Assembly (NCBI RefSeq): GCF_013391635.1
Contig: NZ_JACAWU010000002.1
Span: forward strand, 434,001 to 498,000
Origin: Natronomonas gomsonensis
GTDB taxonomy: Archaea > Halobacteriota > Halobacteria > Halobacteriales > Haloarculaceae
DNA: 64,000 nucleotides
Reading direction: 5' to 3'
Of the stretch, positions 7,590 through 38,832 are shown in pieces. Both the position numbers and the translations under genes were made by a program. Numbering within the stretch: the first letter of the stretch is position 1; the number at the start of each line of letters is the position of its first letter. The notes below the pieces were generated by a model. That model saw only the letters and a list, made by a program, of their open reading frames with translations. It had not been told where the DNA came from and ran no database searches.

Positions 7590-7628
7590 GAAAGATTTAA
7601 ATACTATCGTAACTAACTCTGAGTTAGT
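7590..7628 (+). promoter_or_regulatory. Heat-shock-type promoter and HSR1-like operator of the DUF7127-cdc48 operon
   Basis: The BRE-like GAAAG (7590-7594), TATA box TTTAAATA (7596-7603), nine bases, then the dyad CTAAC-TCTGA-GTTAG (7613-7627), extended by one base pair on each side to ACTAACTC-T-GAGTTAGT. The dyad ends one base before the ATG at 7629, so it covers the start site of a leaderless mRNA and a bound protein would block initiation. The same arrangement with identical spacing occurs at the TFB gene (37264-37301). CTAAC-N5-GTTAG is the motif I recall for Archaeoglobus HSR1, which represses an hsp20-cdc48 operon. Confidence 0.8.
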
Positions 7629-7865
7629 ATGACTGAATACACGCAGTCGATTCGCGGCGACGCGGACGGCATCGTTCGTCAGTACGAGTACGACGACGGC
7701 GCGGTCCTCGTCGCGGACTTTGGCCCCGTCGAAGGGGGTGTTGACGTCGTCGACGGGACGGCCATCGTGGTCGTCGACGACGAACAGTACGAGTACGAAG
7801 TGCCCGAGGGGGCATCCCGTGCTATTATGAACAACGGAATCGTTACTATCGAGGTGGAGCGATAA
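7629..7865 (+). CDS. Small Hsp20-like protein (DUF7127 family), partner of Cdc48
   Basis: A 78-residue acidic beta-rich protein of a haloarchaeal family I recognise as DUF7127. Its C-terminus NNGIVTIEVER matches the closing 'NGVLxIxV' strand of alpha-crystallin domains, and VLVADFGP resembles the opening strand, so it looks like a minimal Hsp20-type fold without the N- and C-terminal oligomerisation arms. It lies 3 nt upstream of cdc48 and shares its operator-controlled promoter. In Archaeoglobus, as I recall, cdc48 is also preceded by an hsp20 gene. A role as adaptor or holdase for Cdc48 is inferred. Confidence 0.75.
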   Translation: MTEYTQSIRGDADGIVRQYEYDDGAVLVADFGPVEGGVDVVDGTAIVVVDDEQYEYEVPEGASRAIMNNGIVTIEVER

Positions 7866-7868
7866 CCG

Positions 7869-10136
7869 ATGAAACTGACGGTCAAACCCCTCAAACAGAA
7901 AGACGCCGGTCGCGGACTGGCGGCGATAGACCGCGCGGCGATGGCCGAACTCGGCCTCGAGAACGGTGACTACATCCTCATCGAGGGTGACGGCCGCGCC
8001 GTCGCCCGGGTGTGGCCCGGCTACCCCGAGGACGAAGGCCAGGGCGTCATCCGCATCGACGGCCGCCTCCGACAAGAGGCCAACGTCGGCATCGACGACC
8101 GCGTGACGGTCGAGGCTGCCGACGTCAACCCCGCAAAGCAGGTGACGGTAGCGCTACCGCAGAACCTCCGCATCCGCGGGAACATCGGTCCGCACATTCG
8201 CGACAAACTCAGCGGTCAGGCCGTCACGACGGGCCAGAACGTCCCCTTCTCGCTCGGCCTCGGGCCGCTGTCCTCACAGAGCGGACAGCGCATTCCGCTG
8301 AAAATCGCTGACACCGACCCCGACGGGACGGTCGTCGTCACCGATTCGACGGACATTCAGGTGAGCGAAAAGCCCGCCGAGCAGATCGCCGACACCGGCG
8401 ACAGCACGGCCGCAGGGGGCGACGGCACTCCCTCGGTACGATACGAGGACATCGGCGGTCTCGATAACGAACTTGAGCAGGTCCGGGAGATGATAGAACT
8501 CCCGATGCGACATCCGGAGCTGTTCCAACAGCTCGGCATCGAACCGCCGAAGGGCGTGTTGCTGCACGGCCCGCCGGGGACGGGCAAGACCCTGATGGCG
8601 AAGGCCGTCGCCAACGAGATAGACGCCCACTTCACGGACATCTCCGGCCCCGAAATCATGTCGAAGTACTACGGGGAAAGCGAGGAGCAACTCCGTGAGG
8701 TGTTCGAGGAGGCCTCCGAGAACGCCCCAGCGATAGTCTTCATCGACGAACTCGACTCCATCGCGCCGAAGCGCGGCGAGACCAGCGGCGACGTCGAGCG
8801 CCGTGTCGTCGCCCAACTGCTCAGCCTGATGGACGGTCTCGACGAACGCGGCGACGTCATCGTCATCGGTGCGACGAACCGCGTCGACGCACTCGACCCC
8901 GCACTGCGCCGGGGCGGCCGCTTCGACCGCGAAATCGAAATCGGCGTCCCGGACAAGGAGGGTCGCAAGGAAATCCTGCAAGTCCACACCCGCGGGATGC
9001 CGCTCGTTGAGGGCATCGACCTCGACCGCTACGCCGAGAACACCCACGGGTTCGTCGGCGCCGACATCGAGAGCCTGACGAAGGAGGCTGCGATGAACGC
9101 CCTGCGGCGCATCCGGCCCGAACTCGACCTCGAAGCCGACGAAATCGACGCCGAGATACTCGAGGCGATGCAGGTCACGGAGGGTGACTTCAAAGACGCC
9201 CTGAAGGACGTGACGCCGAGTGCGATGCGGGAGGTGTTCGTCGAAGTCCCCGACACCACGTGGGACTCCGTCGGCGGACTCGAAGACACCAAAGAGCGCC
9301 TGCGTGAGACCATCCAGTGGCCGCTGGAGTACCCCGAGGTGTTCGAGCAGATGGACATGCAGGCCGCCAAGGGCGTCCTGCTGTACGGCCCACCCGGCAC
9401 CGGGAAGACCCTGATGGCGAAGGCTATCGCCAACGAGGCTCAGTCGAACTTCATCTCCATCAAGGGTCCCGAACTGCTCAACAAGTACGTCGGCGAGTCC
9501 GAGAAGGGCGTCCGAGAGGTGTTCGAGAAGGCACGGTCGAACGCGCCGACCGTTGTCTTCTTCGACGAAATCGACTCCATCGCCGGCGAACGCGGCGCCC
9601 GCATGGGCGACTCCGGCGTCGGCGAACGGGTCGTCTCCCAACTGCTGACCGAGTTGGACGGCCTCGAACAGCTCGAGGACGTGGTCGTCATCGCGACGAC
9701 GAACCGACCGGACCTCATCGACTCGGCGCTGTTGCGCCCCGGTCGACTGGACCGACACGTCCACGTGCCGGTCCCCGATACGGACGCACGGAAGGCCATC
9801 TTCGAGGTCCACACGCGCAACAAGCCGCTGGCTGACGATGTCGACCTCGACGAACTGGCCGCCGAAACCGACGGCTACGTCGGCGCCGATATCGAGGCGC
9901 TCTGCCGGGAGGCCGCCATGGCCGCAACCCGGGAGTTCGTCAACAGCGTCTCCCCCGAAGAGGCCGCGACCAGCGTCGAGAACGTCCGCGTGACTCGCGA
10001 GCACTTCGAGCAGGCACTCGAAGAGGTCGGTGCCAGCGTCGACGAGGACGTCCGGGAGCGCTACGAGGAACTCGAAGAGAAGTTCACCCACGGTAGCGAA
10101 CCCGACGAACCCGAAATCAGCCGGACGTTCCAGTAA
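7869..10136 (+). CDS. cdc48: Cdc48/VAT family AAA+ ATPase
   Basis: A 755-residue double-ring unfoldase that extracts and unfolds proteins for the proteasome and other machines. The N domain (about 1-180) contains the double-psi barrel start [20 protein letters not shown]. The D1 ATPase has Walker A GPPGTGKT at about 234-241 and Walker [10 protein letters not shown]2 has Walker A at about 507-514 and Walker B FFDEIDSI, plus arginine-finger regions [15 protein letters not shown]. The length and domain order are complete. It is transcribed behind the DUF7127 gene from a promoter with an HSR1-like operator, so heat-shock control is likely. Haloarchaea usually carry several paralogues. Confidence 0.95.
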
Positions 10137-34706: not shown

Positions 34707-37073
34707 ATGCATCGACGCATAGGTGCAGTCGTCATGACTCTGCTCATGGTCGCGAGCGTCGCGACCGCGGGAGCGGGCGTCGTGTCGGCAAACCACGTAG
34801 CTTCAGCATCGATTTCAGACCAGACCAGCGGCGGCCACACGGTCGTCGTCGACGACGTGTACCTGCCCGAAGGCGGGTTCGTCGCGATTCACGACTCCAG
34901 CCTCAACGACGGCGGCGAGGCGGTGCTCACGAGTGTCCGTGGCACGTCCGGCTATCTCGAAGCCGGCAATCACAGCAACGTCACCGTGACGCTGGACGAG
35001 CCGCTCGAAGAGGACGACACGCTCATCGCGATGCCGCATCTCGACACCGACGGCGACCGAACCTACGAGTTCGTCTCCAGCGGTGGCGAGGAAGACGGCC
35101 CCTCGACGAACGAGGACGGCGACATCGTCATCGACAGCGCGAACGTGACCGCCAGCGCGACGGTGGCCATGTCCGACCAGTCGACCGGCGGCTCGTCGGT
35201 CTCCGTCGACCGCGTCGAACTCTCCGAGAGCGGCTTCGTGGCGATTCACGACAGTTCGCTTCTGGACGGCAACACCTTCGACAGCGTCCGCGGCGTCAGC
35301 GACGTCCTCTCTGCGGGCGTCCACGAGGACGTCCGGGTCGAACTCGACGACGAGCTCGACAACGAGGACACCATCATCCCGATGCCGCACAAGGACACCA
35401 ACGACAACGGCGAGTACGACTTCGTCACCAGCGAGGGCGACGAGGACGGGCCGTTCGAGGACCCCAACTCCGACTTCGACATCGCGGTCGACACGGCGGC
35501 AGTGACGCCCACCGACGAGGCTAGCGTCTCGATGAACGACACGAACACGGGCGGGAACTTCGTCGTGGTCGACGAGGCGTTCCTGCCGAACGGCGGGTTC
35601 GTGACGGTTCACGACTCGACGGTACTCGACGGCGATGTCTTCGACAGCGTCCGCGGCACGAGCGAGTACCTCGCGCCCGGTACGCACGAGGACATCCACG
35701 TGACCCTCGACGAGCCGCTCGAAGAGGACGACACGCTCGTCCCGATGGCTCACCAGGACACCAACAACAACGAGGCCTACGACTTCCCGGACAGTGAGGG
35801 CCAACAGGACGGTCCCTACACGACCGACTCCGGTGACGCCGTCGTCGACACCGCCAACGCGACGGTGTCGGCGCTGGTCTCCGGCTCCCAGCAGGAATCC
35901 AACGGCAACACCGTGGCGGTTCACCACGTCGACCTCTCGGAGGGCGGCTTCGTGACGATTCACGACAGTTCGCTGCTCGGCGGGGCGACGTTCGACAGCG
36001 TCCGCGGCACCAGCGAGTACCTCGAAGCCGGCTTCCACTCCGACGTGGAGGTCACGTTGGACGAACCGATGAAGACCTCCCAGACGGCCATTCCGATGGC
36101 CCACCGGGACACCAATGGCAACGAGGAGTACGACTTCGTGACCAGTGAAGGCGCCGACGACGGCCCCTACACTGCCAACGGCAACGCAGTCGTGGACACG
36201 TACCGAGCGAGCGTGCAGGCACAGGTGACGTTCACCGGTCAGGAGGACGTTTCCGACACCGTCACCATCGACAGCGTCACGCTGCACAACGGCGGCTTCG
36301 TCACGCTGCACGACTCGACGGTGCTCGACGGCGCGGTCTTCGACAGCGTCCGTGGCACCAGTGAGTACCTCGGCCCCGGCACACACGAGAACGTCAGCGT
36401 CTCTATCGACGAGGTGCCCGGCGGCGAGGACACCTTCGTCGCGATGCCGCATCTCGATACGAACGGCAACGAGGCCTACGACTTCGTCACCAGCGAAGCC
36501 GCAGACGACGCACCGTACACGGTCGCTGGTAACGCCAACGTGGCCCCCGCGACGGTGAGTGCAGTCCCGGAGGCGAGCGTCTCCATCTCCGACCAGACGA
36601 CCGACGGCGAGTCCGTCACCGTCGACAGCGCCTCCCTCTCGCAGGGTGGGTTCGTGACGATTCACGACGGGACGCTCCTTGACGGTGCGACCTTCGACAG
36701 CGTTCGCGGCACCAGCGAGTACCTCGAATCCGGCGACCACTCCGATATCGAAGTCAGCCTGGATACGCCGTACGAGGGGGACGGCACCGCCGTCGCGATG
36801 CCGCATCTCGATACGAACGGCAATCAGGAGTACGACTTCGTCGACACCGAAGGCGGCGAGGACGACCCCTACACCACGGAGGGTGGCGACATCGTCCTCG
36901 ACGACGCCTCGCTGACGGTCGAAGGCGGCATGGGCGAGACGACCGAGACGGACGGTATGGACGACATGACCGAAACCGACGGTGGTTCCAGTGGTGACGG
37001 CGCCGGCTTCGGTGCGGTCGTCGCGCTGCTCGCCATCCTCGGCTCGGTGCTGGCCGCTCGCCGACTGAACTGA
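34707..37073 (+). CDS. Secreted surface protein with six DUF7282-type repeats and PGF-CTERM-like anchor
   Basis: A 788-residue secreted protein. The N-terminal signal peptide is about residues 1-29 (MHRRIGAVVMTLLMVASVATAG). Six imperfect repeats of about 118 residues follow, each with GGFVTIHDSSLLDG, DSVRGTSEYLEAG, VTLDEPLEEDDT, then MPHLDTNGNEEYDFVTSEG. At the DNA level the TTCGACAGCGTCCGCGGC stretch recurs at about 35277, 35640, 35991, 36339 and 36693. The C-terminus is a Thr/Glu/Asp-rich stalk followed by AGFGAVVALLAILGSVLAARRL, close to the PGF-CTERM sorting signal used by archaeosortase, with Pro replaced by Ala. The acidic repeats may bind cations or form part of the cell surface; role unknown. 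Confidence 0.88.
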   Translation: MHRRIGAVVMTLLMVASVATAGAGVVSANHVASASISDQTSGGHTVVVDDVYLPEGGFVAIHDSSLNDGGEAVLTSVRGTSGYLEAGNHSNVTVTLDEPLEEDDTLIAMPHLDTDGDRTYEFVSSGGEEDGPSTNEDGDIVIDSANVTASATVAMSDQSTGGSSVSVDRVELSESGFVAIHDSSLLDGNTFDSVRGVSDVLSAGVHEDVRVELDDELDNEDTIIPMPHKDTNDNGEYDFVTSEGDEDGPFEDPNSDFDIAVDTAAVTPTDEASVSMNDTNTGGNFVVVDEAFLPNGGFVTVHDSTVLDGDVFDSVRGTSEYLAPGTHEDIHVTLDEPLEEDDTLVPMAHQDTNNNEAYDFPDSEGQQDGPYTTDSGDAVVDTANATVSALVSGSQQESNGNTVAVHHVDLSEGGFVTIHDSSLLGGATFDSVRGTSEYLEAGFHSDVEVTLDEPMKTSQTAIPMAHRDTNGNEEYDFVTSEGADDGPYTANGNAVVDTYRASVQAQVTFTGQEDVSDTVTIDSVTLHNGGFVTLHDSTVLDGAVFDSVRGTSEYLGPGTHENVSVSIDEVPGGEDTFVAMPHLDTNGNEAYDFVTSEAADDAPYTVAGNANVAPATVSAVPEASVSISDQTTDGESVTVDSASLSQGGFVTIHDGTLLDGATFDSVRGTSEYLESGDHSDIEVSLDTPYEGDGTAVAMPHLDTNGNQEYDFVDTEGGEDDPYTTEGGDIVLDDASLTVEGGMGETTETDGMDDMTETDGGSSGDGAGFGAVVALLAILGSVLAARRLN

Positions 37074-37263
37074 CGACGGACGCGACGCCGCGTCCGACTC
37101 GGAAACGGCGGGCCGGCCGCCGTGGCGGTTTTTATGTGGTGTCCAGCGCTCGTAGCAACATTTATCACTAACAATCGTTGGGCAAAGGATGCCACACGAC
37201 ATACGGTAACACACAATACTGTCTCTACTGCCCGATATCGGTGTATTCGAGCCACACGCCTGC

Positions 37264-37301
37264 GAAAGGTTTAAGTACCTTTCGGACTAACATACTGTTA
37301 G
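37264..37301 (+). promoter_or_regulatory. TFB promoter with HSR1-like operator and a second dyad
   Basis: BRE-like GAAAG (37264-37268), TATA TTTAAGTA (37270-37277), nine bases, then CTAAC-ATACT-GTTAG (37287-37301). Spacing is identical to that of the Cdc48 promoter at 7590-7628. In addition, CGAAAGGT and ACCTTTCG (37263-37270 and 37277-37284) form an 8-bp inverted repeat with TTAAGT at its centre, so the TATA box itself lies inside a dyad. The predicted transcript would begin near 37300 and have a leader of about 60 nt before the ATG at 37364. Confidence 0.78.
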
Positions 37302-37363
37302 CAACAGTCCGATACCGGATTTCTTCGGGTTTTCCACCTCCGGAGACGGGCGTAACCCATACA

Positions 37364-38347
37364 ATGAGCGATACAAGCATCCGAACCTACACCGACGAGC
37401 GAAGTACCGAGACGACGACCGAGCGAGCCGACGAGCACGAACACGAAGACACGACGGTGTGTCCGGAGTGTGGCGCCCGCCTCGAATCGGACACCGAACA
37501 CGGCGAGACGGTCTGCAGCGAGTGCGGACTGGTCGTCGAGGAGGACGAAATCGACCGCGGGCCGGAGTGGCGGGCCTTCGATTCAGCCGAAAAGGACAGC
37601 AAATCCCGCGTCGGCGCCCCGACGACGAAGATGATGCACGACAAGGGGCTGTCGACGAACATCGGCTGGCAGGACAAAGACGCCTACGGCAACTCCCTGT
37701 CGAGTCGCCAGCGCCAGAAGATGCAGCGGCTCCGCACCTGGAACGAGCGGTTCCGCACCCGTGACTCCAAGGAGCGCAACCTCAAGCAGGCACTCGGCGA
37801 AATCGACCGTATGGCGAGTGCGCTCGGCCTCCCCGAGAACGTCCGCGAGACAGCCTCGGTCATCTACCGCCGAGCGCTGCAGGACAACCTCCTGCCCGGC
37901 CGCTCCATCGAGGGCGTCGCCACGGCATCGCTGTACGCCGCCGCCCGACAGGCCGGCGTCCCCCGCAGCCTCGACGAGGTCGAACGCGTCTCCCGCGTCG
38001 ACAAGATGGAACTCACGCGGACCTACCGCTACATCATTCGCGAGCTGAACCTCGAGGTCAAGCCGGCCGACCCCGAGAGCTACATCCCCCGGTTCGTTAG
38101 CGACCTCGACCTCTCGGATGAAGTCGAGCGTCGGGCCCGAGACCTCATCGACGCCGCCCGCGAGGACGGCATCCTTTCGGGGAAGTCGCCGGTCGGCCTC
38201 GCCGCCGCCGCGGTGTACGCCGCCGCGCTGCTCTGCAACGAGAAGGTCACTCAGAGCGACGTCAGCGAGGTGGCCGACATTTCGGAGGTCACCATCCGTA
38301 ACCGATACAAAGAGTTGCTGGAGGCCGGCGACGTCGTAACGGCCTAA
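37364..38347 (+). CDS. tfb: Transcription initiation factor IIB (TFB)
   Basis: A 327-residue TFB, the archaeal TFIIB homologue that recruits RNA polymerase to TBP-bound promoters. The N-terminal zinc ribbon has TVCPECGARL and TVCSECGLVVEEDEID (about residues 33-60). The B-reader region holds GPEWRAFDSAEKDSKSRVGAP. Two cyclin-like repeats follow, the second closing with SDVSEVADISEVTIRNRYKELL. The ATG at 37364 gives the standard start. Haloarchaea carry several TFBs; this one has an HSR1-like operator, and I recall that one Haloferax TFB is heat-inducible. Confidence 0.95.
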   Translation: MSDTSIRTYTDERSTETTTERADEHEHEDTTVCPECGARLESDTEHGETVCSECGLVVEEDEIDRGPEWRAFDSAEKDSKSRVGAPTTKMMHDKGLSTNIGWQDKDAYGNSLSSRQRQKMQRLRTWNERFRTRDSKERNLKQALGEIDRMASALGLPENVRETASVIYRRALQDNLLPGRSIEGVATASLYAAARQAGVPRSLDEVERVSRVDKMELTRTYRYIIRELNLEVKPADPESYIPRFVSDLDLSDEVERRARDLIDAAREDGILSGKSPVGLAAAAVYAAALLCNEKVTQSDVSEVADISEVTIRNRYKELLEAGDVVTA

Positions 38348-38424
38348 TCGGGTTCGGATTCATCGCTCGATTCGCAGCGTGAAACGTTTTCAATCGCTTT
38401 TACTGATGCCACACAGCGTAGCGT

Positions 38425-38832
38425 ATGCGACGACGGGAGTTCATCGTCGGTTCGGGTACTGCAGCGACGGCGGCCCTCGCCGGCTGTCTCGGCGACGATG
38501 TCGACCACAGGGCGGCGTTTCGTGACGACGTCGAATCCAGCGGTGTCACACTCGACGCGTTGGCGTTGGATTCGGGCGTCGTCTCGGTGGAGTACGACAG
38601 CGACAGCGTCGGCGACGACCTCGGTGCCGTCGCCGTCGCCTTCGCCGACCGGGTCGGCGAGGGATGGACCGTCGAGAAACTCGACAGCATCGCCTATGCC
38701 GACCGGACGCTGACGTGGTACGCCGAGGGAGCCTGGGCAAGCGCCTACGTCTCCGGCGACATCGACGCAAGCGAGTACGGCCGCCGAATCAACGAGACGC
38801 TTGCCCCCGCTGTCGTCGTCGGCGACGACTGA
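38425..38832 (+). CDS. Tat-secreted lipoprotein
   Basis: A 135-residue protein with a Tat signal (MRRREFIVGSG, twin Arg) and a lipobox LAGC at about residues 18-21, as for haloarchaeal Tat lipoproteins. The mature part is acidic (DDVDHRAAFRDDVESSGVTL, VGEGWTVEKLDSIAYA) with no domain I recognise. A TTTTACTGATG-rich stretch lies upstream. Unknown function; anchored at the outside of the membrane. Confidence 0.75.
   Translation: MRRREFIVGSGTAATAALAGCLGDDVDHRAAFRDDVESSGVTLDALALDSGVVSVEYDSDSVGDDLGAVAVAFADRVGEGWTVEKLDSIAYADRTLTWYAEGAWASAYVSGDIDASEYGRRINETLAPAVVVGDD

Follow-up and report, generated by a model that had tools for sequence, protein, structure and literature searches.

A candidate HSR1-type operator common to a TFB gene and the cdc48 operon in Natronomonas gomsonensis and other haloarchaea

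What could control the expression of one particular transcription initiation factor B (TFB) in a haloarchaeon? This question is raised by a palindrome located just downstream of the TATA box of a tfb gene in a stretch of 64,000 nucleotides of Natronomonas gomsonensis DNA (contig NZ_JACAWU010000002.1, positions 434,001 to 498,000), hereafter called the window and numbered from its first letter. The tfb gene lies on the + strand (37364..38347) and encodes a protein of 327 amino acids which is matched by the Pfam families TFIIB and Zn_Ribbon_TF and by NCBIfam NF001658. An earlier note on this DNA, made from the letters alone, had mentioned a heat-inducible TFB in Haloferax. Such a case is indeed published, since heat raises tfb2 of H. 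volcanii up to eight-fold (PMC2121645). In Halobacterium NRC-1, tfbG is up 2.4-fold in heat and is also up in cold (PMC1971269).

The operator and its targets

The core promoter of tfb was read directly from the sequence. It consists of a BRE (37262..37269, + strand, GCGAAAGG, in which GAAAGG occupies 37264-37269), a TATA box whose position was aligned with the promoters of relatives (37270..37277, + strand, TTTAAGTA), a gap of nine bases (37278-37286) and the candidate operator CTAAC-N5-GTTAG, a dyad read alike on both strands (37287..37301, CTAACATACTGTTAG). Before the cdc48 operon, the BRE GAAAGA (7590-7595, + strand), the TATA box (7596-7603, + strand, TTTAAATA) and again an N9 gap (7604-7612) are followed by a second candidate operator (7613..7627, CTAACTCTGAGTTAG), which ends one base before the ATG. 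The spacing of the BRE/TATA, N9 and CTAAC-N5-GTTAG elements is identical in the two promoters (37262-37301 and 7590-7627), as the earlier note had claimed when it assigned to both genes an HSR1-like operator nine bases away from the TATA box. The same note had described this match as base for base; that wording is valid for the spacing only, because the TATA boxes differ by one base and the nine-base gaps and the dyad centres are also different.

The first gene of the cdc48 operon (7629..7865, + strand) encodes a DUF7127 protein of 78 amino acids (Pfam PF23444) and is followed by cdc48 (7869..10136, + strand), which encodes an AAA+ ATPase of 755 amino acids. The DUF7127 protein is probably a small heat-shock (Hsp20-like) protein, to judge from a Natrinema homologue annotated as Hsp20/alpha crystallin and from a single-sequence AlphaFold model (mean pLDDT 71.9), for which the first 13 Foldseek matches were small heat-shock proteins, none of them with E < 0.001. 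A small ORF begins 1 to 10 bases past the operator in 90 of 90 cdc48 instances (duplicates included). Since one base separates operator and ATG in the window, the operator would span about -16 to -2 on the predicted leaderless transcript of the cdc48 operon. With the same distance from the TATA box, the tfb transcript would start near 37303 (+ strand); the earlier note had predicted a start near 37300.

A genome-wide search detected the exact dyad CTAAC-N5-GTTAG at two places of the 3.38-Mb genome, before tfb and before cdc48 only, and its backward control pattern at three. As about 1.1 dyads are expected per genome from independent bases with the composition of the window, the dyad alone is little proof. 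For the TTTA-N13-dyad composite, about 0.002 occurrences are expected per genome and two are seen. When up to two mismatches were tolerated in the composite, 18 places were obtained (the 2 exact ones included) against 16 control matches, and no third target is therefore claimed in this genome.

With the half-sites relaxed at their third base, the composite at fixed spacing (CTWAC-N5-GTWAG, W being that base in the left and right half-sites) was found in 227 of 292 Halobacteria genomes and in 60 of 77 genera, with 7 control matches. The narrower pattern TTTAN{11,15}CTAAC-N5-GTTAG was present in 156 of the 292 genomes, while the backward control pattern was matched 7 times; the control totals of both searches were added by eye. 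In the family of the window, at spacings N12-N14, the composite occurs in 58 of 67 genomes and in all 22 genera. The strict composite is missing in 65 of the 292 genomes, though a homologue of the candidate regulator described below is held by 290 of them (E 1e-20 or better).

The genes following the site are nearly always the same two. Among 124 distinct fetched places (126 fetched instances minus 2 duplicates, 46 being returned automatically and 80 chosen by hand among the matches listed), 88 lie before cdc48, 34 before tfb and 2 before neither; the 115 places at which the dyad stands N13 away from TTTA are all followed by cdc48 or tfb, and both exceptions have N14. The 24 matches of genus g31, which is placed next to Halobellus in the TFB tree described below, all precede cdc48 (10) or a tfb (14), and the 12 genomes of this genus have the tfb site in 12 cases and the cdc48 site in 10. 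Two loci of this genus (L291, L292) present an additional TFB of divergent sequence (identity of about 63% with that of the window), which has the operator without the TTWCG element described below.

In family f2, where one mismatch was allowed, the site is followed by cdc48 at 17 of the 30 places fetched and by a tfb at 11, for a total of 28. Many left half-sites have drifted in this family (ATTAC, GTAAC, CTTAT), and among the 16 genomes of its genera g14 and g15, one has an exact match, 8 have one-mismatch matches only and 7 have none. At the f2 loci L330-L333, L335-L338, L342-L347 and L349-L352, most cdc48 and tfb operators are drifted by one base, often in the left half-site, and the site thus appears to be decaying or changing there.

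Orthologous tfb promoters had been pointed out in the earlier note as the place where a lack of the dyad would count against the operator. Among titled tfb records (the best 80 of 455), CTWAC-N5-GTWAG stands at 57 of 80 loci; of the remaining loci, 7 combine a TATA box with a dyad containing one mismatch, and 16 are devoid of the dyad. In base-shuffled upstream regions, the dyad was recovered in 2 of 1600 and the composite in 0 of 1600. A contig-cut copy in Natronomonas sp. CBA1123 is 100% identical to the window TFB over residues 1-273. At two loci among the nearest tfb relatives (L034, L052), the dyads are decayed. The genome of the window contains ten TFB matches, of which only the window's gene has the operator; the best sites at the other nine deviate from it by 2 to 4 mismatches. 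In a tree built from 133 TFBs (106 with and 27 without the operator, the rows being partly picked because they were operator-bearing), the operator label requires 11 changes versus 24.9 in shuffles; the distribution of the operator therefore agrees with gene lineages, apart from some gains or losses.

At this step, we conclude that the operator genuinely exists, that it is ancient and that its specificity is high. The coupling of a tfb gene to an HSR1-type operator, proposed in the earlier note, is upheld by the presence of the same operator with fixed spacing at the tfb promoter and by its conservation in orthologues. The designation of the site as HSR1-type is well supported; what is new is that, in many haloarchaeal genera, a TFB is a predicted direct target. 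No description of the operator in haloarchaea was found in open-licence PubMed Central papers, and a review states that no HSR1-like mechanism has been identified in halophiles so far (PMC9133787).

The candidate regulator and the readings of the switch

A candidate regulator with an ArsR-type winged helix is encoded at G000:C2:1408681-1409358 of the window's genome, about 0.94 Mb from the window's tfb. It is unlinked to cdc48, the operator of which is at 441613. Among 30 HTH_20 loci fetched from this genome, it is the best match of HSR1 (from the Archaeoglobus genome G417), and its homology with Phr/HSR1 extends over the greater part of the protein, the winged helices of the candidate and HSR1 sharing 35 of 51 residues. 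A PDB match to the Phr structure 2p4w was obtained with E 1.2e-22, and the NCBIfam model Phr_regulator was matched with E 7.7e-27, yet below the model's own cut-off of 320 bits. The C-terminal half of the haloarchaeal regulator diverges from HSR1 and is assigned to a separate Pfam domain, PF24270. Both HSR1 and Phr are members of arCOG01684, and they have hsp20 and cdc48 as targets (PMC5852551).

An operator-like site with up to two mismatches was located at -15 to -13 of the regulator's start codon in 9 of the 30 best-scoring loci of regulator homologues, versus 0 of 600 control windows. In the genome of the window, the regulator promoter contains at best a site with four mismatches, a level met by 60 of 600 control windows. 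At L152, L153, L155, L159 and L163, a one-mismatch operator-like site overlaps the start codon of the regulator, a hint of possible self-control in some genera. A regulator gene recorded as L019/L023 and L020/L024 is identical at G000:C1:73367-73726 and G000:C2:1804219-1804578, the latter some 8 kb away from where C2 ends; these copies are perhaps an assembly overlap or a duplication. CsmR of H. volcanii was also considered as the binder and was ruled out, being an Lrp-like protein with the motif TATCA-N4-TGATA (PMC13286277).

We propose, with a probability of about 0.73, that a haloarchaeal HSR1/Phr orthologue acting on CTWAC-N5-GTWAG represses the operon of the small heat-shock-like protein and cdc48 together with one TFB gene, that heat relieves this repression, and that the TFB spreads the response. 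Binding by this regulator, repression through binding and heat as the signal are the three steps that we infer. Placed downstream of the TATA box and ahead of the start site, a repressor dimer would deny RNA polymerase access to TBP-TFB, the block falling on the polymerase and not on TBP-TFB; polymerase block is reported for Phr and suggested for HSR1 in a review (PMC9133787). Upon heating, the repressor would let go and two transcripts would be released, one for the small heat-shock-like protein and Cdc48, the other for one particular TFB. The freed TFB would in turn raise second-tier heat-shock promoters, a general transcription factor thus serving as the amplifying step. In Halobacterium, CopR influences cctA as well as survival under heat (PMC5605881); this role and the rise of tfbG in cold indicate that other regulators take part in the heat response.

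It is possible, if somewhat doubtful, that the HSR1 orthologue binds the operator but obeys a signal other than heat as such (salt, redox, protein damage or growth phase), the two genes then constituting a proteostasis regulon. Targets made of protein-quality-control genes and a TFB would be in keeping with such a signal, and so would a C-terminal half that diverges from HSR1 and carries PF24270, the place of the redox regulator SurR in the same arCOG01684 (PMC9426492) and the cold induction of tfbG in NRC-1 (PMC1971269). However, heat induction of cdc48 and tfb genes is published for Halobacterium and H. volcanii (PMC1971269, PMC2121645), with inductions of 5.6-fold for cdc48b and 3.4-fold for cdc48d in NRC-1 (PMC1971269), which argues for heat.

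A second explanation for control at tfb concerns the surroundings of the TATA box. As the earlier note had observed, an 8-bp inverted repeat encloses the box (37263..37284, on either strand); its arms, CGAAAGGT (37263-37270) and ACCTTTCG (37277-37284), are an exact match in the window. As a conserved unit, however, this palindrome was rejected, because it recurs in full in 3 of 103 distinct tfb promoters and in 1 of 61 from titled records. The competition of two factors at this core promoter, which had been put forward on the basis of the repeat, is speculation. Two shorter elements are widespread in operator-bearing tfb promoters. An upstream BRE, CGAAA, is found in 73 of 103 distinct ones versus 7 of 91 cdc48 promoters, and a downstream TTWCG element is exact in 74 of 103 versus 0 of 91, these being comparisons in which the tfb rows of genus g31 were told from cdc48 partly by TCG in the gap. 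The count of 45 of 61 tfb promoters with TTWCG, which is restricted to titled records, avoids that limit. In the window, this element, typical of operator-bearing tfb promoters, is represented by TTTCG (37280..37284, + strand).

CGAAA and TTWCG are placed symmetrically about the TATA box in tfb promoters, and the TFB might accordingly regulate its own gene by means of the BRE and its TTWCG mirror element, with the main control residing there and not in the operator. The restriction of TTWCG to the tfb side of the comparison, with the TATA box as axis, favours this possibility. On the other hand, 29 of the 74 TTWCG-bearing promoters have the variant TTACG, in which the mirror with the usual BRE CGAAA is broken, and the element could equally be an extra repressor half-site. 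We regard it as unlikely that TFB self-control is the main mechanism; TTWCG itself might represent a BRE in inverted orientation, one more half-site of the repressor or an element of another kind.

It is slightly less likely still that the site is a true repressor site bound by another winged-helix regulator which took over the HSR1 motif in haloarchaea. As the genome contains 45 HTH_20 matches, other candidates for the binder remain, and the HSR1/Phr-like gene is neither beside its putative targets nor provided with a clear operator of its own in this genome. Against such a replacement, the motif is the same as that of HSR1, the targets overlap (cdc48 and a small heat-shock protein), the winged helix is conserved to the extent given above, and operator-like sites are found at the start codon of the HSR1-like regulator in several genera. 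Finally, a dyad expected about once per genome could be taken for chance or for inherited sequence without function, a reading whose probability is close to nil, refuted as it is by the fixed spacing, the specificity for two targets, the conservation in 60 of 77 genera and the lack of the composite in all 1600 shuffled regions.

The tfb leader RNA

With the start placed as above, the region between the operator and the ATG would form the leader of the tfb mRNA (37302..37363, + strand), with a hairpin core at about 37315-37343. Many tfb leaders present in this region a hairpin with a U-rich loop. Over 55 tfb leaders, the mean folding z-score was -1.26, with 14 leaders below -2. When the leader was considered as a possible RNA thermometer, the start codon was unpaired in 12 of 12 leader folds examined. 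The folding of the window's own leader is only a little more stable than that of its shuffled versions (z -1.30 and z -0.90).

A covariance model built from seven hand-trimmed leaders matched the leader strand, at E up to 1, in 31 of the 60 tfb leaders searched, its 7 seeds included (the 60 being 59 operator-bearing leaders and one with a decayed operator). No match to this model was obtained in 17 operator-free tfb loci, and 11 cdc48 loci gave a single place with E 0.51. Eight other matches were recorded, seven of them on the opposite strands of the same hairpins and one at another place in L082. The window leader matches the model partially, at positions 8-35 of 42 (20 bits, E 0.045).

In an alignment of 24 leaders, each of the three P1 pairs has changes at its two positions, and not one of 500 shuffles attained the covariation score; as these leaders were picked by score, from 28 sources chosen among the model matches, and the alignment was fitted to the model, the result leans towards the model. 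RNAalifold detected no pair in a raw MAFFT alignment of 40 leaders. A scan of 37000-38500 against Rfam gave no match at the gathering score, and one match below it, which lies outside the leader.

A broader picture can be drawn, in which a deeply conserved two-promoter heat-shock switch employs the TFB in the manner of a bacterial alternative sigma factor, TTWCG provides self-limitation, and a structured U-rich leader acts after transcription in many species. As a whole, this picture is conjectural and rather improbable.

Relation to known heat-shock systems

The HSR1 motif of Archaeoglobus fulgidus (Rohlin et al. 2005, as given in PMC9133787) is identical to the operator of the window. The haloarchaeal arrangement resembles the HSR1 regulon of this organism in the position of CTAAC-N5-GTTAG just downstream of the TATA box (PMC9133787, PMC5852551) and in its targets, cdc48 and a small heat-shock protein, the haloarchaeal protein being Hsp20-like by annotation and by a weak fold match. 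It differs from the A. fulgidus regulon in several respects. A TFB gene is the predicted direct second target, the half-sites are relaxed at the third base (CTWAC/GTWAG), and the eight-base TATA box is followed by a gap of N9 in haloarchaea versus N8 at HSR1-cdc48 of G417. Furthermore, the regulator gene is not in the cdc48 operon in the window's genome, whereas the two are linked in G417.

In G417, the operator stands in front of HSR1-cdc48, of an hsp20-like gene and of two small membrane protein genes, the last three being named by eye; at L294 and L295 of this genome, it is found at two similar pairs, each combining a small membrane protein with an XRE-like regulator (also named by eye). 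Next to HSR1 in G417, a TFB gene lies in divergent orientation (L293, 1321-3657). As this adjacency is absent in the seven other cdc48-linked Archaeoglobaceae stretches fetched, it was not used as evidence.

The candidate regulator belongs to the same protein family as Phr of Pyrococcus furiosus (2P4W), which represses hsp20 and the gene of an AAA+ ATPase. However, the DNA site of Phr is made of TTTA, TGGTAA and AAAA (PMC9133787) and not of the present operator, and the available text of the same review names no TFB target for Phr.

The proposed switch is also comparable to the heat-inducible TFBs of haloarchaea, tfb2 of H. volcanii and tfbG of Halobacterium, for which, with the hsp5 promoter, a TFB rising with heat has been proposed as the driver of heat-shock promoters. 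Unlike the present proposal, these reports, in their accessible portions, give no upstream switch for the TFB gene. The operator on the TFB promoter is thus a candidate for the missing step, namely what raises the TFB. Being common to the TFB gene and to cdc48, it offers a testable answer, which would connect a euryarchaeal repressor of ancient origin with the multiplication of general transcription factors that haloarchaea have undergone. A palindromic switch shared by a chaperone operon and a TFB gene suggests how heat may become a wider change in gene expression.
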